Of a stretch of DNA of 64,000 nucleotides, positions 41,618-49,272 are shown piece after piece (the first letter of the stretch is position 1; each line of letters begins with the position of its first letter). Source of the DNA: Alternaria dauci (Eukaryota; Ascomycota; Dothideomycetes; Pleosporales; Pleosporaceae); the NCBI RefSeq assembly GCF_042100115.1, contig NC_091277.1:2294001-2358000 (forward strand), read 5' to 3'. The notes under the pieces were generated by a model. The model made no database searches. It worked only from the letters and a program-made list of their open reading frames with translations, and was not told where the DNA came from. Both the position numbers and the translations under genes were made by a program.

Positions 41618-42701
41618 ATGGCACCCTCAGCGTCCCCCGCGCCCAAGAAATCCAAAGCGCCACCCAAAACAATCGCAGACTTCACCGTCCTCCCCCTCAC
41701 ACTACCCACCCTCTCGGGCGTACCAGCAACCTCAAACACCGCCAAACACTACCTGTACATCAAACAGCACGCACCCAGCCTCCCCACCGCAGACGACGAG
41801 CGCAGCCTCTTCATCGCAAACACACCCATTGACGCCGACGAGCGCAGCATACGCGCGCTGTTCCAGGGACAGCTAGGCGGGAGCATGGTCGAGCGCGTGG
41901 AGTTTGATGCGAGTGTGCCTGCGCAGCCGATGCATAAACGGTGGAGGAATGCTGAGAAATCTGTGATTGCAACTGCGACTGCGAAGGAAGACGATGACAA
42001 GAGGGGGAAGAAGAGGAAGAGGGTAGACGACGCGGCTGTGATTGCAGAGGGCGTTGTGGAAGATGCTGAGAGTGTGTTGCCGCGGTTGTGGAATAGTGAG
42101 GTGAGGAAGAGTGGGAGTGGCGCTGTCGTTGTCTTTGTGGATAGGAAGAGTGCGCGGGGAGCGCTCAAGGAGGTGGCGAGGGCCGTGAAAGAGGGTCAAA
42201 GTATTGTATGGAAAGGAGAAGAAGGGTTGGGCGTTGAACGTAAGTCTGATTCCCATATTCTCTACTCGACATGCTGAATCCACATGAATGTCCATGCTAA
42301 CTTTGGAATCAACAGGCTACAAATCACACAACGCACTCCTCTACCCCACGCCCTCCTCACTCCAAGCCTCCCTCAACGCATACCTCACACAATTCAACGC
42401 ACTAGAAACAGCCAGGAATCGCCTCCGCAAGACATCCCGCTCCGTTCCCGACGAAGATGGCTTCATGACAGTCACGCGAGGCGGACGCGTTGGGCCTGCG
42501 AGGATTGAAGATGCAGAGAAGAAGAAGGCGGAGTTGGATGAGAGAAAACGGAATCACAGGGCCACGGATGACTTTTACCGCTTCCAGAATCGGGAGCGCA
42601 GGAAGGAGGCTGAGGGTGCTTTGAAGAGGAAGTTTGAGGAGGATAGGAGGAGGGTGGAGAGTATGAGGGAGAGGAGAGGGAGGGTCAGGCCAGAGGCTTG
42701 A
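41618..42701 (+). CDS. RRP7: Ribosome biogenesis protein Rrp7
   Basis: Exons 41618-42239 and 42316-42701 (76 bp intron) give 335 residues. The start at 41618 has a strong context (GCCACCATGG); an in-frame ATG at 41534 is less likely. The N-terminal half has an RRM-like fold with family landmarks KHYLYIKQHAP, SLFIANTPIDADERSIRALF and VVVFVDRKSARGAL. The C-terminal half has the Rrp7 signature: DEDGFMTVTRGGR followed by FYRFQNRERRKEA and a long basic helix (LKRKFEEDRRRVESMRERRG). Rrp7 is part of the UTP-C/CURI modules for small-subunit processing in the nucleolus. The gene converges on the kinase-HET gene, with 274 bp between the two stop codons. Confidence 0.92.
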
Positions 42702-42975
42702 GGGGTCATGATTGTTGTGTAAGGTTACCTGAATGGCGTTGGTATCTTCAGACATTTTCGTTATTGAATCAGGTGTTCAGGATGGATGATCACCTAGTAT
42801 GGCGCACAAGACGAGATAATCGAATCCAAAACGTTGATTCTCGACTATGAAATAGCAATCGTAAAGCGCCATGTAAACTGAAAGAGAAACTCCTGAAACG
42901 CCCTGGGAAAAGACCAAGGTTCTTCAACTCAATAGCCGAATAAGAAAAGCGACTTCCTGTCACAAAGCACCCCGA

Positions 42976-45900
42976 CTAGTCCTTCCCATTCCCATTTGCA
43001 CTCGCATCACTCCCACACCTATTCATGAGATTTCCGTCCATCCCTTCATCGTTCCCATTACCGCCGCCTGGGTTCTGTCCAGGAAGTGTCTTTGACTGGA
43101 AGCAAGCTTTGTTCAGTCGACGACTTCCACTCCTCTGATGCGAAGGACAAAAAATGGAACTCAGATCGGACATTTGGGTCGAGTTGACTTTTAGCGTGGC
43201 TTGCACAGCTTCTGTCCCTTGTCCGATATCATCGCCTTGCTTCCTTAGCCATTGGCAGTCACGTAAACGACTTGCTGAAGGAAGTATGTGTTGCGGTTCA
43301 GACGCACTTTCGGAAATACTAGTGAAAACACCATCGGAGGCATGGGCCTCCCGGATATCTAGATGATCTTTGGCATGGCAAGCCTTGCCTGGCATCGTGA
43401 GGGAGATGAGGTCGTTGCGATGTTTGCTCTTCCCATTCATGGTAGCGGCCACCAGGACAGGCTGCATGACTTTGCTAGATTCAGTATGAATCTTCTCCCA
43501 CACCAGCGGCGAGAGTCCGCGAGGGAAAGTTTCGGATGCCTTGAGGGTGTTGCACTCCCAATACAACTGTTCGCCCAAGTGAAGGAAGCGTCGACTGAGG
43601 AGGCGGTCTTGTAGTGCCCATGCACGTGTGTCCCAACCAAAGTTTGGCGTATTCAAGACGCCAGCTGGTAGCAGAGCAGAAGCAGGTAATTGGCCTGACG
43701 TCGGGCTCTGACTTGTACTCGATCCAAGTAAAGGCACCAGATAGGTCTTGTCGGTCGTGCCTTCGACGGCAACTTCGTTGTTGAAGTCATGGCCCGGGTC
43801 ATTTGAATGGTCAAGTACGACGGTCAGTGTCGCATTGCGGAAGGTGGACGCCATACTCGTGCATTCGCGTTCCTTATCTTCTTCTGAATCTTGCAAGACA
43901 CAGAGTGAGTCTAGCCAACAGTACTTATAGCCCAGGTCATGCGCTGCCGTAATTGCATTCGCAATCGCAATCGGGAGGGTCGGTAGTAGCAGTTCGTTCT
44001 GCATGCTCGATAGTGTCTCGCTCGAGAGTAGTGGCTGTATGTGACTCCAGATGTGACTCAATGCCACGTACTCTACTTTGTCGGTAGTCGATTCGATGCC
44101 GTCAGTCTGAACAATCTTTGCGCGAATTGTGCCACCTTGGCCATTCGGAAGAATCTCAATCAGACGTGTGGGTAAGGAGCTGGCATCGCGTGCTGCTGTA
44201 TGGCGACAAGCCTCGTGTGTCCATGAACATTCGCTCAGCCAATTCTTTGCATTCGCAAGGCTGGCATTTGCTTCTGTGGCGTTCGTGCCGTGATGGTGAG
44301 GATGGTCGTAGGTGTCGATGTTCCCGTGCTGATTGAGCAAGTCTACTCCATCAAGCTCTTCTTGTGGGCCGGGGAATGTCGCCTTGTCGTTGGGCCAGTT
44401 GAGACAGCATGGTGCCGGAGTGAAGACCATGGCCAATGCTCCTGCATCTGGCCGTTCATCTGGATCAGCATTTAACATGCTCTGAAGCGTGCAAATGACT
44501 GTATGCTCTGTCGTGGTCTTCGCCTCAGCAAGGAATCCGGCGAGCTTGTCTTGTATACCAGATACATCCTGCCAATAGTGCTTGCCAGTACGCCCACTAA
44601 ATGCCTTGCGGAAAGCTAGCCATCCCATGTTGTCTTCACTAAACGGAACGGATGCCATCTCCGCAAAGACGCAACCAAGACTCCAGATGTCAGCAGCCTT
44701 CTTGCGAGGAGCGCCCTCGAAGACCTCGGGTGCAATGTATTGGCGTGTTAGCGGCTTGTGTTGGTCATCGCTAATCTCCTCCGAGGAGCTGACACCGAAG
44801 TCGCTGAGTATCACGTGGGGGAATTCTTGATCACCTTCGACGATCAAGATGTTCTGAGGCTTAATGTCCATGTGCCTGACTTGCTGCTCGTGAAGATGTC
44901 TTACTGACGACGTAAGACAGCCGAACATTTTGACGATAGTCTCCGACAGATTGGCAGGCTTCTGCGACGCTGATCGCTCGAGCCATATCGCAAGTGTTGT
45001 ATCCGCAACGGGCGAGAGCAGCATGGACATCTTATCGCCCCGGGAATAGGTCCCCATGATGCGAATGATGTGAGGGTGACGTAACTTCCGAAGAACGCCT
45101 ACTTCCTTCTTGAGCTCATCAATCACCGTCTGGTTACGGTTCTTGAGTGTCTTGCGACTGACGTGCAACCCCGTTTGTTGATGCACGACCTCATCCACCG
45201 TACTAAAGCCTCCTGAGCCTAGTAGCTTGACACTAAGGAAGGTCGATTCCCTAGCATATACTGCTCCTCTGGAGTACCCAAATGGCACAATATCCTGTGT
45301 GGATGTCGTTGTGTACTTGTCCAGGGATACATGGCGTGTCGTGAGTTCTCCATCTCCAGGGGTAGCGGGAGACACTGGGGATGACAGAGGAGGTCGTCCA
45401 ACATCCGTCGGTCTCATCACAGTGCTGGGTTTTATGTATGTAATTGTATCCATGCTGTTCCATATGCCTTCAGTCAGGACGTCTCGACCTCCTGTGGTGA
45501 CTGAAGATGCTCGGGATAAGCGCCGAGTGCTAGCAGCGATACCGCCTCTAGAATGCTTCCAGTGAGGATGTTCCAACAGAGTACTGTCTGTCCTATCATC
45601 CATGGATGAGGCCGGAAGCTCCTTATTTATGGACTGGGCGACATCATCTCCGGCCAAAGCAGTCTCGTCGTCTTCCTCTGCTCTGATGCGGCCATCTCGC
45701 AGGGAGCCCGCAACAGTCGACACACTGCGCGAGCCAGACTTGTTCGACTCATGTAGTGAGGTCGGTGACTGAGAGATGTTCGGCGAAATTGTAGTGGGTT
45801 TGGTACGTTGGTCCGCACAATCCAACTGGCTCTCACCGAGTTGTGAGAGCTGGAATTGGAAGAATCCTCCGGAGGATGATGGGCCTGCAGGACCGCTGCC

Positions 45901-47404
45901 GCTGCCGCCGCTGCCAGGGTACTTGGAGCCATTACCGCCCCGTGGATGGAATGGCGGTTGAGGAGAAGGCTTGCCACCGAAGCTGTCATCGCTTGGTCCG
46001 TCGTCATTGTCATCGTCCGCAGAGTCGTGGCTGTCGTTGTCTTCCTCATCCCGCCAGTCAAGCATGCACTTGCCCTGTTTGAAGTGGTCGGCGATGTGAT
46101 CTATACGTTCTTGTCTGGACTGGAAGCGGTGTCGGCAAAATCCGCATCTGCGAGGGAATTCGGTCTCAGAGATGACTGTACTGGCCTCGTCGAAGTCTTC
46201 AGGGTTCATCTCGGGGTGGATGTTTCGGAAATGCTGGACAAAGTGGTACTTTCGATAACATGGTTTGACGTTCTCGACCCCCTCAATCGTGCACAGGCTA
46301 CACACCCACGATTTGCATGGGTAGCCCTCCTCTTCATTCCGCTTCCAGTCATTCTTGCGGCCATACCGTTTGCCGCACTTCCTAGTGCACTGGTAGATCT
46401 TCCTGGGATCTCTGCCAAGCAACTCAATGTCCTCGGTAGGACAGCACCGCTTCTTGCTGCCCCGTGTGGAAACTACGGGGACGGTGACGGTAGCGGTGTC
46501 ACGATTTGGCGATGAGCTATTAGAAGATGTCTCCCCAAGCGCTGGCTGTGCAACGCTTCCATAGACATTGTATGCCTCCGGAAGCTCCGTCTGGAACGTG
46601 TGGTCATCCCATAAGGATTCATGCTGCTTCTGTTGTTGTTCTTGTTGGATGAGTGCTGTCTGGGATTTGTAGGCTGAATCGCTTTGGCTGCCACCCATAC
46701 CCTGCTTCAAGAGCTGACTGAACCAGCTTCGGATGGCATCTGCTGGCTCACCAGTGAGCTGGCTTAAGGAGTCGATATGTCTGTCACTTGGCAGTACATT
46801 GTATTTGTTGAACCATGTCGCGCAGACGTCAGCTGCCTCATCTGGAAGTCCATCTGCTACCACAGAAGGGACAGGGTCCAGGTTCCAGCTGGACGTAGTC
46901 GTCGTGGGGGGTGTAGGGAACAAGGGGAAATCAAAGCTTGCGTGACGCTTCGACTGAGGGTAGTCGTGCATGTCAAGCTGGAGTGGGCGCTTGCCGAGCG
47001 CATTGAACTGTGTGGGCATGTTGTCAAAAGACTGTAGTGGTGTGGGTGGGAATGATCCCGCGATATGTTGGAGTTGCATATCAGGAGTGAGCTGCGTATT
47101 CCATGCTGAGGTCGCCGAGGTATCATCCAAGGCCTGCCACGCTGTTAGCACGCATGCGACATGGCAGGCTCAATGAGAAGCTTACAAGAGTATGTTGCAT
47201 GTCAAATGTGCTCTGCTGAGGGGTGCTATCGAATACGGTCGGGTCCATGAAAGACGATGCGGTAGTATCGATACCCTCGTCAGCGAAGAAGAAGCCAGAA
47301 GTGTTATCCGCTGGCGTGAATGTCTGTTGTTGCGGCGTCGCGAACATGTTGCTGAAGTCCATGTTGGTCGTGTCAAAGGCGAAACCTGCGCCCTGATGGT
47401 CCAT
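42976..47404 (-). CDS. Homeodomain-like / C2H2 / Ser-Thr kinase / HET-domain fusion protein
   Basis: Exons 47404-47186 and 47133-42976 (52 bp intron) encode 1,458 residues; exon 2 is a single uninterrupted 4.2 kb frame. Order of parts: Gln/Thr-rich N-terminus; homeodomain-like helices at about 170-217 (ATWFNKYNVLPSDRHID... IRSWFSQLLKQ); a zinc-finger region at about 320-430 (CTRKCGKRYGRKNDWKR, CKSWVCSLC, CGFCRHRFQSRQERIDHIADH); acidic and Gly/Ser linker; protein kinase at about 700-975 with glycine loop LGSGGFSTV, Lys in VSRKTLK, catalytic HMDIKPQN, DFG and APE; then a HET domain at about 1035-1270 with its three blocks VEYVALSHIWS, YCWLDSLCVLQDSEED and RAWALQDRLLSRRFLHLG, ending QLYWEC. The kinase appears catalytically complete. 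HET domains trigger cell death in fungal non-self recognition. The protein could couple phosphorylation and nucleic-acid binding to that response. Confidence 0.85.
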
Positions 47405-48492
47405 GACTATGGGATTTGTCAGAGGGCGTTGTCGCTGGGTATGGCGTATTGCTGTCGTCGTGGTAGACGGTTAGCAGTCACAGGCTCCAAGGAATGAGCG
47501 AGTATGATGGAGAATGAGTGTCTAGAAGCCTGAGGCCTGTTGCTCGGTATTTTAGATCAAAGGGCGCTGCGCGCACGAGGTTCGCAATCGAGTTCGGAGT
47601 CATTCATGCAGCCCTTCAGCTTCAGGGAAGGGCGATGGAGATCCAAGGTTCAGGCAACCGGTGAGCCGAATAGTGGGGAATCGCGGTAACTTTACGACTT
47701 CGCCAAGCCGGTCGTTCAAGATGCGATTGTGGAGATCCTACGCTACGTGCCAGAATGTCAAGTCGGCCCCGTCGCGTCGCCTGACCTGGTAGCTATCCGG
47801 TCTTAGCAGAAGGTGCTCTACTTGCACGACGTGTGTGGTCGTTGCGACGGCCTCTTCCAATGTGGGTGAAAAGAAACGTCTTTCGCAGGTTCATAAGCGC
47901 TAAATTCCTGTATCGCCCTTTCCCTCTCAGAAGGGCGCAGCCGCACAAAACTGGCTAGCGTCGGCAGTGCGAAGTGGGGCGTGTGGCTGAGCTGCAATCA
48001 AGATACGGAGAACGCGAACTCCACCTCCAGCCCCATGTCTTGCATGGCTGAGTCATTCTTGGCTTATATATCCACGACACACTGCTCATGATCATGTTGA
48101 AGATGTGGTCGAGTCGCATACCTGGGTAGATGTCTGCTCCATCGAGATTAGTGCGGGCTACTGTACCAAACCTTGGAAGGAGCGATGAATAGATCAGTAA
48201 GTCGCCAACTTGAAATTCGCAAGCATCAATGATTGTCTAGATCATATGGGCTATCAACAGTAGTCAGTCTCCCGTGGTGTGTAGGAAGGACATCTGCACT
48301 CAAGTGATTCAGGAGTTTAAGATGTTTAACCAGGCCAAACACCTACTCCAAGCAAATAACACGGACTGACTCACGAGACATGATCACTTTGCGTGAGGAA
48401 GCAATTGCCTGTTTCCATATATGATGAACGTAGCCTGGATAAGTGCTTCCTTCCACTTCTGGACAACTCATCGATTCTCCAACTAACCTTTC
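47405..48492. promoter_or_regulatory. Divergent 1.1 kb promoter region of the kinase-HET gene and an orphan
   Basis: No gene seen between the two divergent start codons. TTATATATCC at 48064-48073 is a TATA-like element roughly 420 bp upstream of the orphan. Otherwise nothing distinctive. Confidence 0.45.
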
Positions 48493-49272
48493 ATGAACCA
48501 AAAACGTGAAGCTCGACTGGCAGATATCCGGCAAAACCCACGTCGTCTTGATCCCCTTAACGATGAGGACTGGAAGATATTGCTGGCACTCCTAGATGAA
48601 AGAGAAGAGCGCGAGATACGAGAACGAGCAGATCGAGCGAAACAAGCGCAGGCAAACCAAGTCCGGTCCCCTCCATCTCCGACTCCTGGTAGCTCATCTG
48701 CCGCAGCAACGAACACTGATCATGATGGCGATGGCGATGGCGATGATAAGAAGGAAAACTCCGACGAAAACGAAGAGAGCGCCGTCTCACTATCAATCCG
48801 CACGAAGATCAAAGAAGAACAAGCAGACACCGAAGACGAAGACATGAAACCCCCCGCACCAGACCCAACCGCAGCTCCCACCGACCTTAACCAACCCCTC
48901 ACTGCCCCCTCTGGAGAACGCATTTACTTCTTCTACGGCACCTACAACATCCCCCTCGTACTGCTCCACACAGATATCCAAACTGCCGTGCAGAAATTGA
49001 TCGAAATGTACATTGCGCGCAATCGACTAGCTGGCAGTGTCGACGTCTGTATCCACCAGCGCTATGATGGTCGAGCTACGGATAATGTTGATGGTCTAGA
49101 GTATGCCTGCGGGAGTTGTATTGACAAGTATCGTGATGGTCAGAACTACAGGGGATATAGGGTCTGTATAAGACATGGGCGGAAGGCTGTGGATGGACAG
49201 ATGGTATATGCTTATTTTGCTGTCGCGCAGAAGCGGACAGAGAACCAGCGGTTGATTTGGCGTAGCGAGTAG
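48493..49272 (+). CDS. Orphan acidic protein of unknown function
   Basis: A single frame of 259 residues. Residues 1-50 are charged and probably helical (LLALLDEREEREIRERADRA). Residues 55-130 are disordered, with an acidic repeat (HDGDGDGDDKKENSDENEES) and a possible SUMO site (IKEE). The C-terminal 125 residues look folded: ERIYFFYGTYNIPLVLLHTD, an amphipathic helix, then four Cys in DVCIHQRY, YACGSCIDKY and YRVCIRHG, ending in LIWRSE. The folded part and absence of stops support a real gene, but I recognise no family. An upstream exon cannot be excluded. It is divergent from the kinase-HET gene and convergent with catalase (209 bp between the stops). Confidence 0.65.
   Translation: MNQKREARLADIRQNPRRLDPLNDEDWKILLALLDEREEREIRERADRAKQAQANQVRSPPSPTPGSSSAAATNTDHDGDGDGDDKKENSDENEESAVSLSIRTKIKEEQADTEDEDMKPPAPDPTAAPTDLNQPLTAPSGERIYFFYGTYNIPLVLLHTDIQTAVQKLIEMYIARNRLAGSVDVCIHQRYDGRATDNVDGLEYACGSCIDKYRDGQNYRGYRVCIRHGRKAVDGQMVYAYFAVAQKRTENQRLIWRSE

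Follow-up and report, generated by a model that had tools for sequence, protein, structure and literature searches.

In the 64-kb window analysed here (the whole stretch of 64,000 nucleotides (nt) from Alternaria dauci, contig NC_091277.1, positions 2,294,001 to 2,358,000 of assembly GCF_042100115.1; coordinates below count from its first letter), the minus strand from 47404 to 42976 holds a single gene of two exons and one intron, with a product of 1458 amino acids. Read from the N terminus, this product joins a degenerate homeodomain-like unit, a C2H2 zinc-finger block, a Ser/Thr protein kinase and a HET domain, which has been described as a cell-death-inducing, TIR-related domain (PMC12881547, PMC10197012, PMC4986451, PMC10890737). 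Every recognised domain is encoded within exon 2, and the features of the gene are collected in Table 1.

An earlier note on this DNA had proposed one protein with the modules in that order, and had argued that the fusion is free of any intron prediction given that kinase and HET share one exon; both claims held. The joining of the four modules in one fusion protein is supported by the long open frame, which runs for 1397 stop-free codons, a length with a chance probability of about 3e-19 (calculated with an off-frame stop frequency of 0.030, taken from the longer open frames of the window). Codon usage preferred frame 0 in 29 of the 34 intervals scored, and both the coding signal and the single open frame span the two module junctions. 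We ruled out kinase and HET as adjacent separate genes, there being no intervening stop. The C terminus is the least certain portion of the gene model, because the last two scored intervals (codons 1269–1348) do not favour the stated frame and the final 37 codons were left out of the codon-usage scoring. At the other end, the start codon of exon 1 is the first ATG in its frame; the exon 1 residues are richest in Thr, Phe, Asp and Gln, a Pfam search recognised no domain among them, and the splice signals of the predicted intron are of the standard fungal type.

Table 1. Features of the kinase–HET gene in the window
Feature	Position	Strand	Description
Exon 1	47186..47404	-	219 nt; start codon and 73 residues; gene model
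Intron	47134..47185	-	52 nt, phase 0, GTAAGC...CTAAC...CAG; predicted from splice signals
Exon 2	42976..47133	-	4.2 kb; 1385 codons and stop, uninterrupted
Degenerate homeodomain-like three-helix unit	46696..46851	-	about residues 168–219; sequence and fold similarity
C2H2 block	46042..46404	-	homologous to the block of homeobox–C2H2 proteins; genome search and profile
Linker	45241..46041	-	part low-complexity, rich in Asp, Ser and Gly; domain not found
Ser/Thr protein kinase domain	44419..45240	-	Pfam Pkinase (PF00069), above curated cut-off
Kinase–HET linker	44248..44418	-	57 residues, same frame
HET domain	43531..44247	-	includes N-terminal W..C...H..C / PTRLI lead-in; Pfam part 43609–44070
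C-terminal tail	42979..43530	-	184 residues, unrelated to the post-HET region of relatives

The two profile searches that the earlier note had proposed for the C-terminal half both gave matches above their cut-offs (PF00069, E 5.3e-43; PF06985, E 9.4e-17), and the HET match, on which the reading hinged, scored 62.1 bits against a curated cut-off of 22.5. The kinase should be active, because the glycine loop (GSGGFSTV), Lys734, Glu750, Asp829, DFG (851–853) and APE (874–876) are all present. The description of the kinase as active-type therefore stands for its glycine loop, Lys, DFG and APE, but the Arg of HRD is replaced by Met (HMD), and the enzyme is non-RD, with no Arg ahead of the catalytic Asp; the Ala of AxK is replaced by Ser. 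This domain also accounts for what other collections return: NCBIfam matches of the protein were to the kinase part alone and all under cut-offs, all 60 matches of exon 2 listed among 2137 to solved structures fall on the kinase part, and matches at 41 prokaryotic loci were confined to query residues 600–897, essentially the kinase. In viral contigs we found no relative.

In a tree of 14 kinase rows from this genome (L031 represented by the part from one exon; duplicates and pieces of fewer than 140 residues dropped), the window kinase groups with those of loci L045, L044 and L031 (support 95/96). The nearest of these tree relatives by identity is L045, at 34%, and none of the 3.6–6.5-kb stretches around L044, L045 and L031 gave a HET profile match. 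With midpoint rooting, this clade and the kinase clade of four further kinase–HET loci described below (L039–L042) together make up one of the two sides of the tree (96/93). Each of the eight kinases in these clades is non-RD, with HMD, HKD or HGD at this site, whereas the six other kinases compared, a non-random sample, are RD. The non-RD type is frequent among the immune receptor kinases of plants.

The HET domain contains all three of its diagnostic blocks, as the earlier note had reported, and the domain proper is complete in length when set against the approximately 220–240 amino acids given for HET domains, whose overexpression suffices for death (PMC12881547). HET is described as TIR-related with a conserved functional glutamate (PMC9815663, PMC9153377), the similarity to TIR fading beyond helix alpha C (PMC4986451). 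HET matches occur at at least 155 places in this 34.9-Mb genome, exon pieces counted, which is a large HET repertoire; in the genome-wide scan the window domain scored 66.3 bits, compared with 129.2 for the best place. An AlphaFold2 model of the kinase–HET part made without an alignment had a mean predicted local distance difference test score of 31 and was not used.

The N-terminal half was examined for the homeobox and C2H2 domains that the earlier note had named, and here its assignment stood only in part: the fingers proved homologous to a cellular family, but Pfam matched neither module, and the homeodomain contacts and the histidines of finger 1 are lost. When the homeodomain and finger pieces were searched alone against Pfam up to E 10, just a plant zinc-finger model appeared (E 0.075), below its cut-off, and against solved structures the finger block found nothing better than E 0.19. 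Searching the zinc-finger block against its own genome returned six other places at E < 1e-3. Moreover, a profile of eight finger blocks matched the window protein at E 5.8e-17 in a set of 5,001 sequences made up of that protein and 5,000 shuffles, of which the best reached 1.9; the search that had originally turned up these eight relatives used the window block as its query. On this sequence evidence, the zinc-finger block is homologous to the homeobox–C2H2 proteins of the same genome. By inspection, finger 1 has lost both His, and finger 2, which carries an insert, and finger 3 (CGFC-x12-H-x3-H) retain their zinc ligands.

The sequence and fold similarities of the three-helix unit upstream of the fingers were all non-significant by E-value, and fold and position are the grounds on which we provisionally call it homeodomain-like. 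The window protein had no Pfam homeobox match, is absent from the genome's eight Homeobox_KN places, and was not matched by a homeodomain profile built from six relatives. Those relatives (L050, L052, L053, L055, L056 and L057) are six of the eight Homeobox_KN places and carry a homeodomain upstream of their fingers; L056 and L057 were found by the zinc-finger block at E 0.002 and 0.009. Like the window protein, they have a homeodomain or homeodomain-like unit followed by a C2H2 block ending CGFC...H.A.HF. In contrast to it, they matched neither a kinase nor a HET profile over the 3.1–3.4-kb stretches examined. In the usual homeodomain position numbering, all six relatives retain Asn51, Arg53 and Arg55, and all three are replaced in the window protein: helix 3, which contains WFSQLLKQ (residues 210–217), has Gln at position 51 by alignment to TGIF1, and Leu 53 and Gln 55 by ungapped continuation. 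Among the dual-specificity transcription factors of fungi, proteins combining a homeodomain with C2H2 fingers are listed as a class (PMC5415576). L056 and L057 (C1:180741-186455) are tandem homeobox–C2H2 genes with divergent homeodomains, in which CLSN and RLTN replace WFAN.

Within this genome, the full order of homeobox-like unit, C2H2 block, kinase and HET was found only in the window gene (best 34 of 154 candidates scored). The earlier note knew of no characterised protein with all four modules; the kinase–HET half of the architecture is not unique to the window gene. A survey of 150 listed HET places (of 155) against 139 kinase places identified four further loci, L039, L040, L041 and L042, at which HET is preceded by a same-strand kinase no more than 1.6 kb upstream. 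In all four the HET frame closely follows the kinase frame; the kinase frames of L040 and L042 extend into a Cys-x2-Cys block, and the same block sits in the HET frame of L041. Because of this close succession and the block shared across frames, each locus is most simply read as one gene with a short predicted intron. At L043, where the kinase is one that we take to be CDK-like, the kinase frame stops about 1 kb ahead of the HET frame, and we rejected this locus as a fusion.

The kinases of L039–L042 form one clade (100/100) with the loop HGDLKPxN, and their HET domains form one group (93/90). Each of the four has another kinase of the same family at a distance of 2.1–5.7 kb (L039 with L048 on C6, L040 with L102 and L041 with L103 on C2, and L042 with L042:5788-6978 on C5), and two of the four pairs are arranged head to head. 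A search with the L041 kinase found ten loci of the family at E ≤ 0.001, made up of the four kinase–HETs, their four neighbours and two more. The partner kinases are likewise non-RD with the HGD loop, and the stretches examined around them gave no HET profile match. An N-terminal region of the family was seen by eye in L039–L042 and in three of the four partners, with weak matches in L031 (0.011) and L044 (0.041); it had no match in the window protein. The window gene and L039–L042 are thus alike in having a Ser/Thr kinase followed by HET and in the non-RD type of that kinase, and unlike in that L039–L042 have a second family kinase adjoining and an N-terminal region of their own.

Both the kinase and the HET tree place the window gene outside the L039–L042 groups, which favours two separate origins of the kinase–HET join. 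We dropped the trees as proof of two joinings, since forcing all five genes into one clade was not rejected by the approximately unbiased test (p-AU 0.356 for HET and 0.0662 for the kinase); one old fusion, with later loss of HET in L044, L045 and L031, is a possible alternative. The recurrence of a kinase before HET in this genome suggests a general arrangement in which kinases control HET, the window gene being one version of it.

Combinations of kinase and HET appear in public domain-architecture tables. In the part of the PubMed Central literature that is openly licensed, as far as its texts are accessible, we found no description of a HET–kinase fusion or of a four-module protein of this kind. 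Podospora HET-E, HET-D, HET-R and BH share with the window protein a HET domain of approximately 220–240 amino acids within a multidomain protein (PMC12881547, PMC10890737). However, their HET is N-terminal and its partners are a NACHT–WD40 unit or a lectin fold (PMC12881547, PMC10890737), whereas in the window protein HET lies near the C terminus and is combined with a kinase and a module derived from a transcription factor. A Trichoderma table also gives HET together with FAD-binding domains (PMC3218866), and Pkinase is listed among the N-terminal domains of fungal NOD-like receptors (NLRs) (PMC4986451); the window protein had no NACHT or NB-ARC Pfam match up to E 1. Kinases joined to, or acting on, an executioner are described in fungal fusions of HELL with a kinase or pseudokinase and of a protease with a kinase-like domain, and in animal RIPK3/MLKL (PMC12881547); the executioner-type domain here is HET/TIR-like, in contrast to a helical bundle or protease. 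Clusters of two and three genes are described for other death pathways of fungi (PMC12881547), and the paired kinase and kinase–HET loci resemble them.

Tentatively, and a little short of an even chance, we favour a kinase-regulated HET signalling protein whose N terminus binds or senses. The homeobox–C2H2-derived module would bring the protein to a partner, either a nucleic acid or another protein, and sense a change there; this sensing would switch the kinase on; the kinase would control HET in cis, through autophosphorylation or oligomerization; and HET signalling would follow, at the extreme as regulated cell death. Coding sequence across both junctions, the above-threshold kinase and HET matches, the catalytic residues, the finger homology, the homeodomain-like fold, the recurrence of kinase–HET genes, the non-RD pattern, the published role of HET in cell death and the known fusions of kinases with other executioners are consistent with this mechanism, in which killing by the protein, N-terminal recognition and kinase gating of HET are each putative. 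Its probability is independent of whether the kinase–HET join arose once or twice.

Several features weigh against it. Although its three blocks are in place, the HET domain is divergent: Ser1103 stands at the motif-1 Trp-Gly, where 27 of 28 other HETs have Gly, and Asp1249 at the block-3 Gln-Glu, where all 28 have Glu. Among the residues common to all 28 (Ser, Trp, Asp, Gln, Met, Arg, Trp and Glu), seven are kept and the Glu has become Asp. The window HET has the longest branch (1.71) of the 29 rows in the tree, a non-random set comprising the top Pfam hits, the HETs matching the window protein best, the kinase–HETs and one HET that neighbours a kinase. The region that usually follows HET in relatives is absent. 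Relatives with a continuing frame have 174–404 in-frame residues after HET, and at least 268 in all but one gene (a count that excludes the split kinase–HETs and two fragments). We considered a C-terminal region hidden in another frame or past an intron within the 1 kb from 42700 to 43700, and rejected it: tblastn with 30 C-terminal sequences from relatives (two of them duplicates) gave 58 rows, the best at E 0.043, and a profile of these sequences reached only 0.057 (1.3 bits). In addition, the gene's own kinase is the only one listed within 10 kb of the window HET, and the surroundings of the gene are housekeeping (RRP7, Nup85, Ysc84, catalase), with no recognised immune cluster.

The strongest rival, which we consider unlikely, is a nuclear signalling kinase whose HET has lost killing and serves as an interaction or oligomerization surface, in a transcriptional or developmental role like that of its homeobox–C2H2 relatives. 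The divergent HET with its Asp for an otherwise invariant Glu, the missing post-HET region, the N-terminal homology and the housekeeping neighbours all fit such a protein, and in some TIR domains the catalytic glutamate is missing or no NADase activity can be detected (PMC9153377). Yet the loss of the homeodomain contacts and of the finger 1 histidines makes DNA binding doubtful too, the change from Glu to Asp is conservative, and the TIR glutamate may correspond to another HET residue. The same altered residue and long branch, with the absent C-terminal region and the weakly coding tail, would also be expected of a decaying or neutral fusion of a kinase gene with a HET gene fragment, open yet of little function; 1397 stop-free codons, the catalytic residues and the codon preference for frame 0 argue against it and make it quite improbable. 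Still further down we place separate kinase and HET proteins made from two transcripts through internal alternative promoters or splicing, a highly improbable arrangement given that no stop lies between the halves and that the linker from the kinase to the HET lead-in is so short.

The lost DNA contacts are what would be expected of a bait that need not bind DNA, and the N terminus may mimic the cell's own homeobox–C2H2 proteins as an integrated decoy, engaged by the product of an invader or an incompatible partner and thereby triggering the kinase–HET part. The homology of the fingers to a cellular family and the effector-type module downstream fit this reading; many other causes could explain the loss of DNA binding, however, and we hold it improbable. 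Plant NLRs with integrated domains offer an analogy. As a long shot, the gene could encode a NACHT-free single-chain decoy, in which a copy of a homeobox–C2H2 protein stripped of its DNA contacts acts through a non-RD kinase on a TIR-like HET, within a wider class that would include the two-gene kinase and kinase–HET loci. If true, the decoy would be a fungal parallel to the plant receptors with integrated domains.

The architecture suggests a self-recognition or immune-like switch under the control of a kinase. HET proteins rank among the most numerous proteins of fungi and also among the least understood; a review places them with the most obvious gaps in knowledge (PMC10197012), and according to a 2024 paper the way in which HET domains bring about death is unknown (PMC10890737). 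HET and a kinase in one chain would offer a direct way into how HET is controlled upstream. One genome has five loci at which a kinase precedes HET, four of which are two-kinase loci, and this makes control of HET by phosphorylation a testable general idea. A front end derived from a transcription factor, with its DNA contacts lost, would be a candidate sensing module without NLR repeats.

Elsewhere in the window, the gene is accompanied by housekeeping genes for GWT1, a UDPGP family protein, Nup85, Ysc84, RRP7, catalase and an MMM1-domain protein, and by a sequence encoding a fungal-specific transcription factor domain. Past the 5′ end of the gene, on the plus strand, an open frame of 261 codons (48487–49272) gave no Pfam match; its middle part is acidic, and its C-terminal half contains some Cys. 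No Rfam family scored above threshold in the window. In the assembly as a whole, the only 5.8S match (best 39 of 1043 candidates scored) falls within L034 (C7:2723602-2726755), a stretch of very high AT content that looks like a mutated copy of ribosomal DNA, possibly one altered by repeat-induced point mutation.

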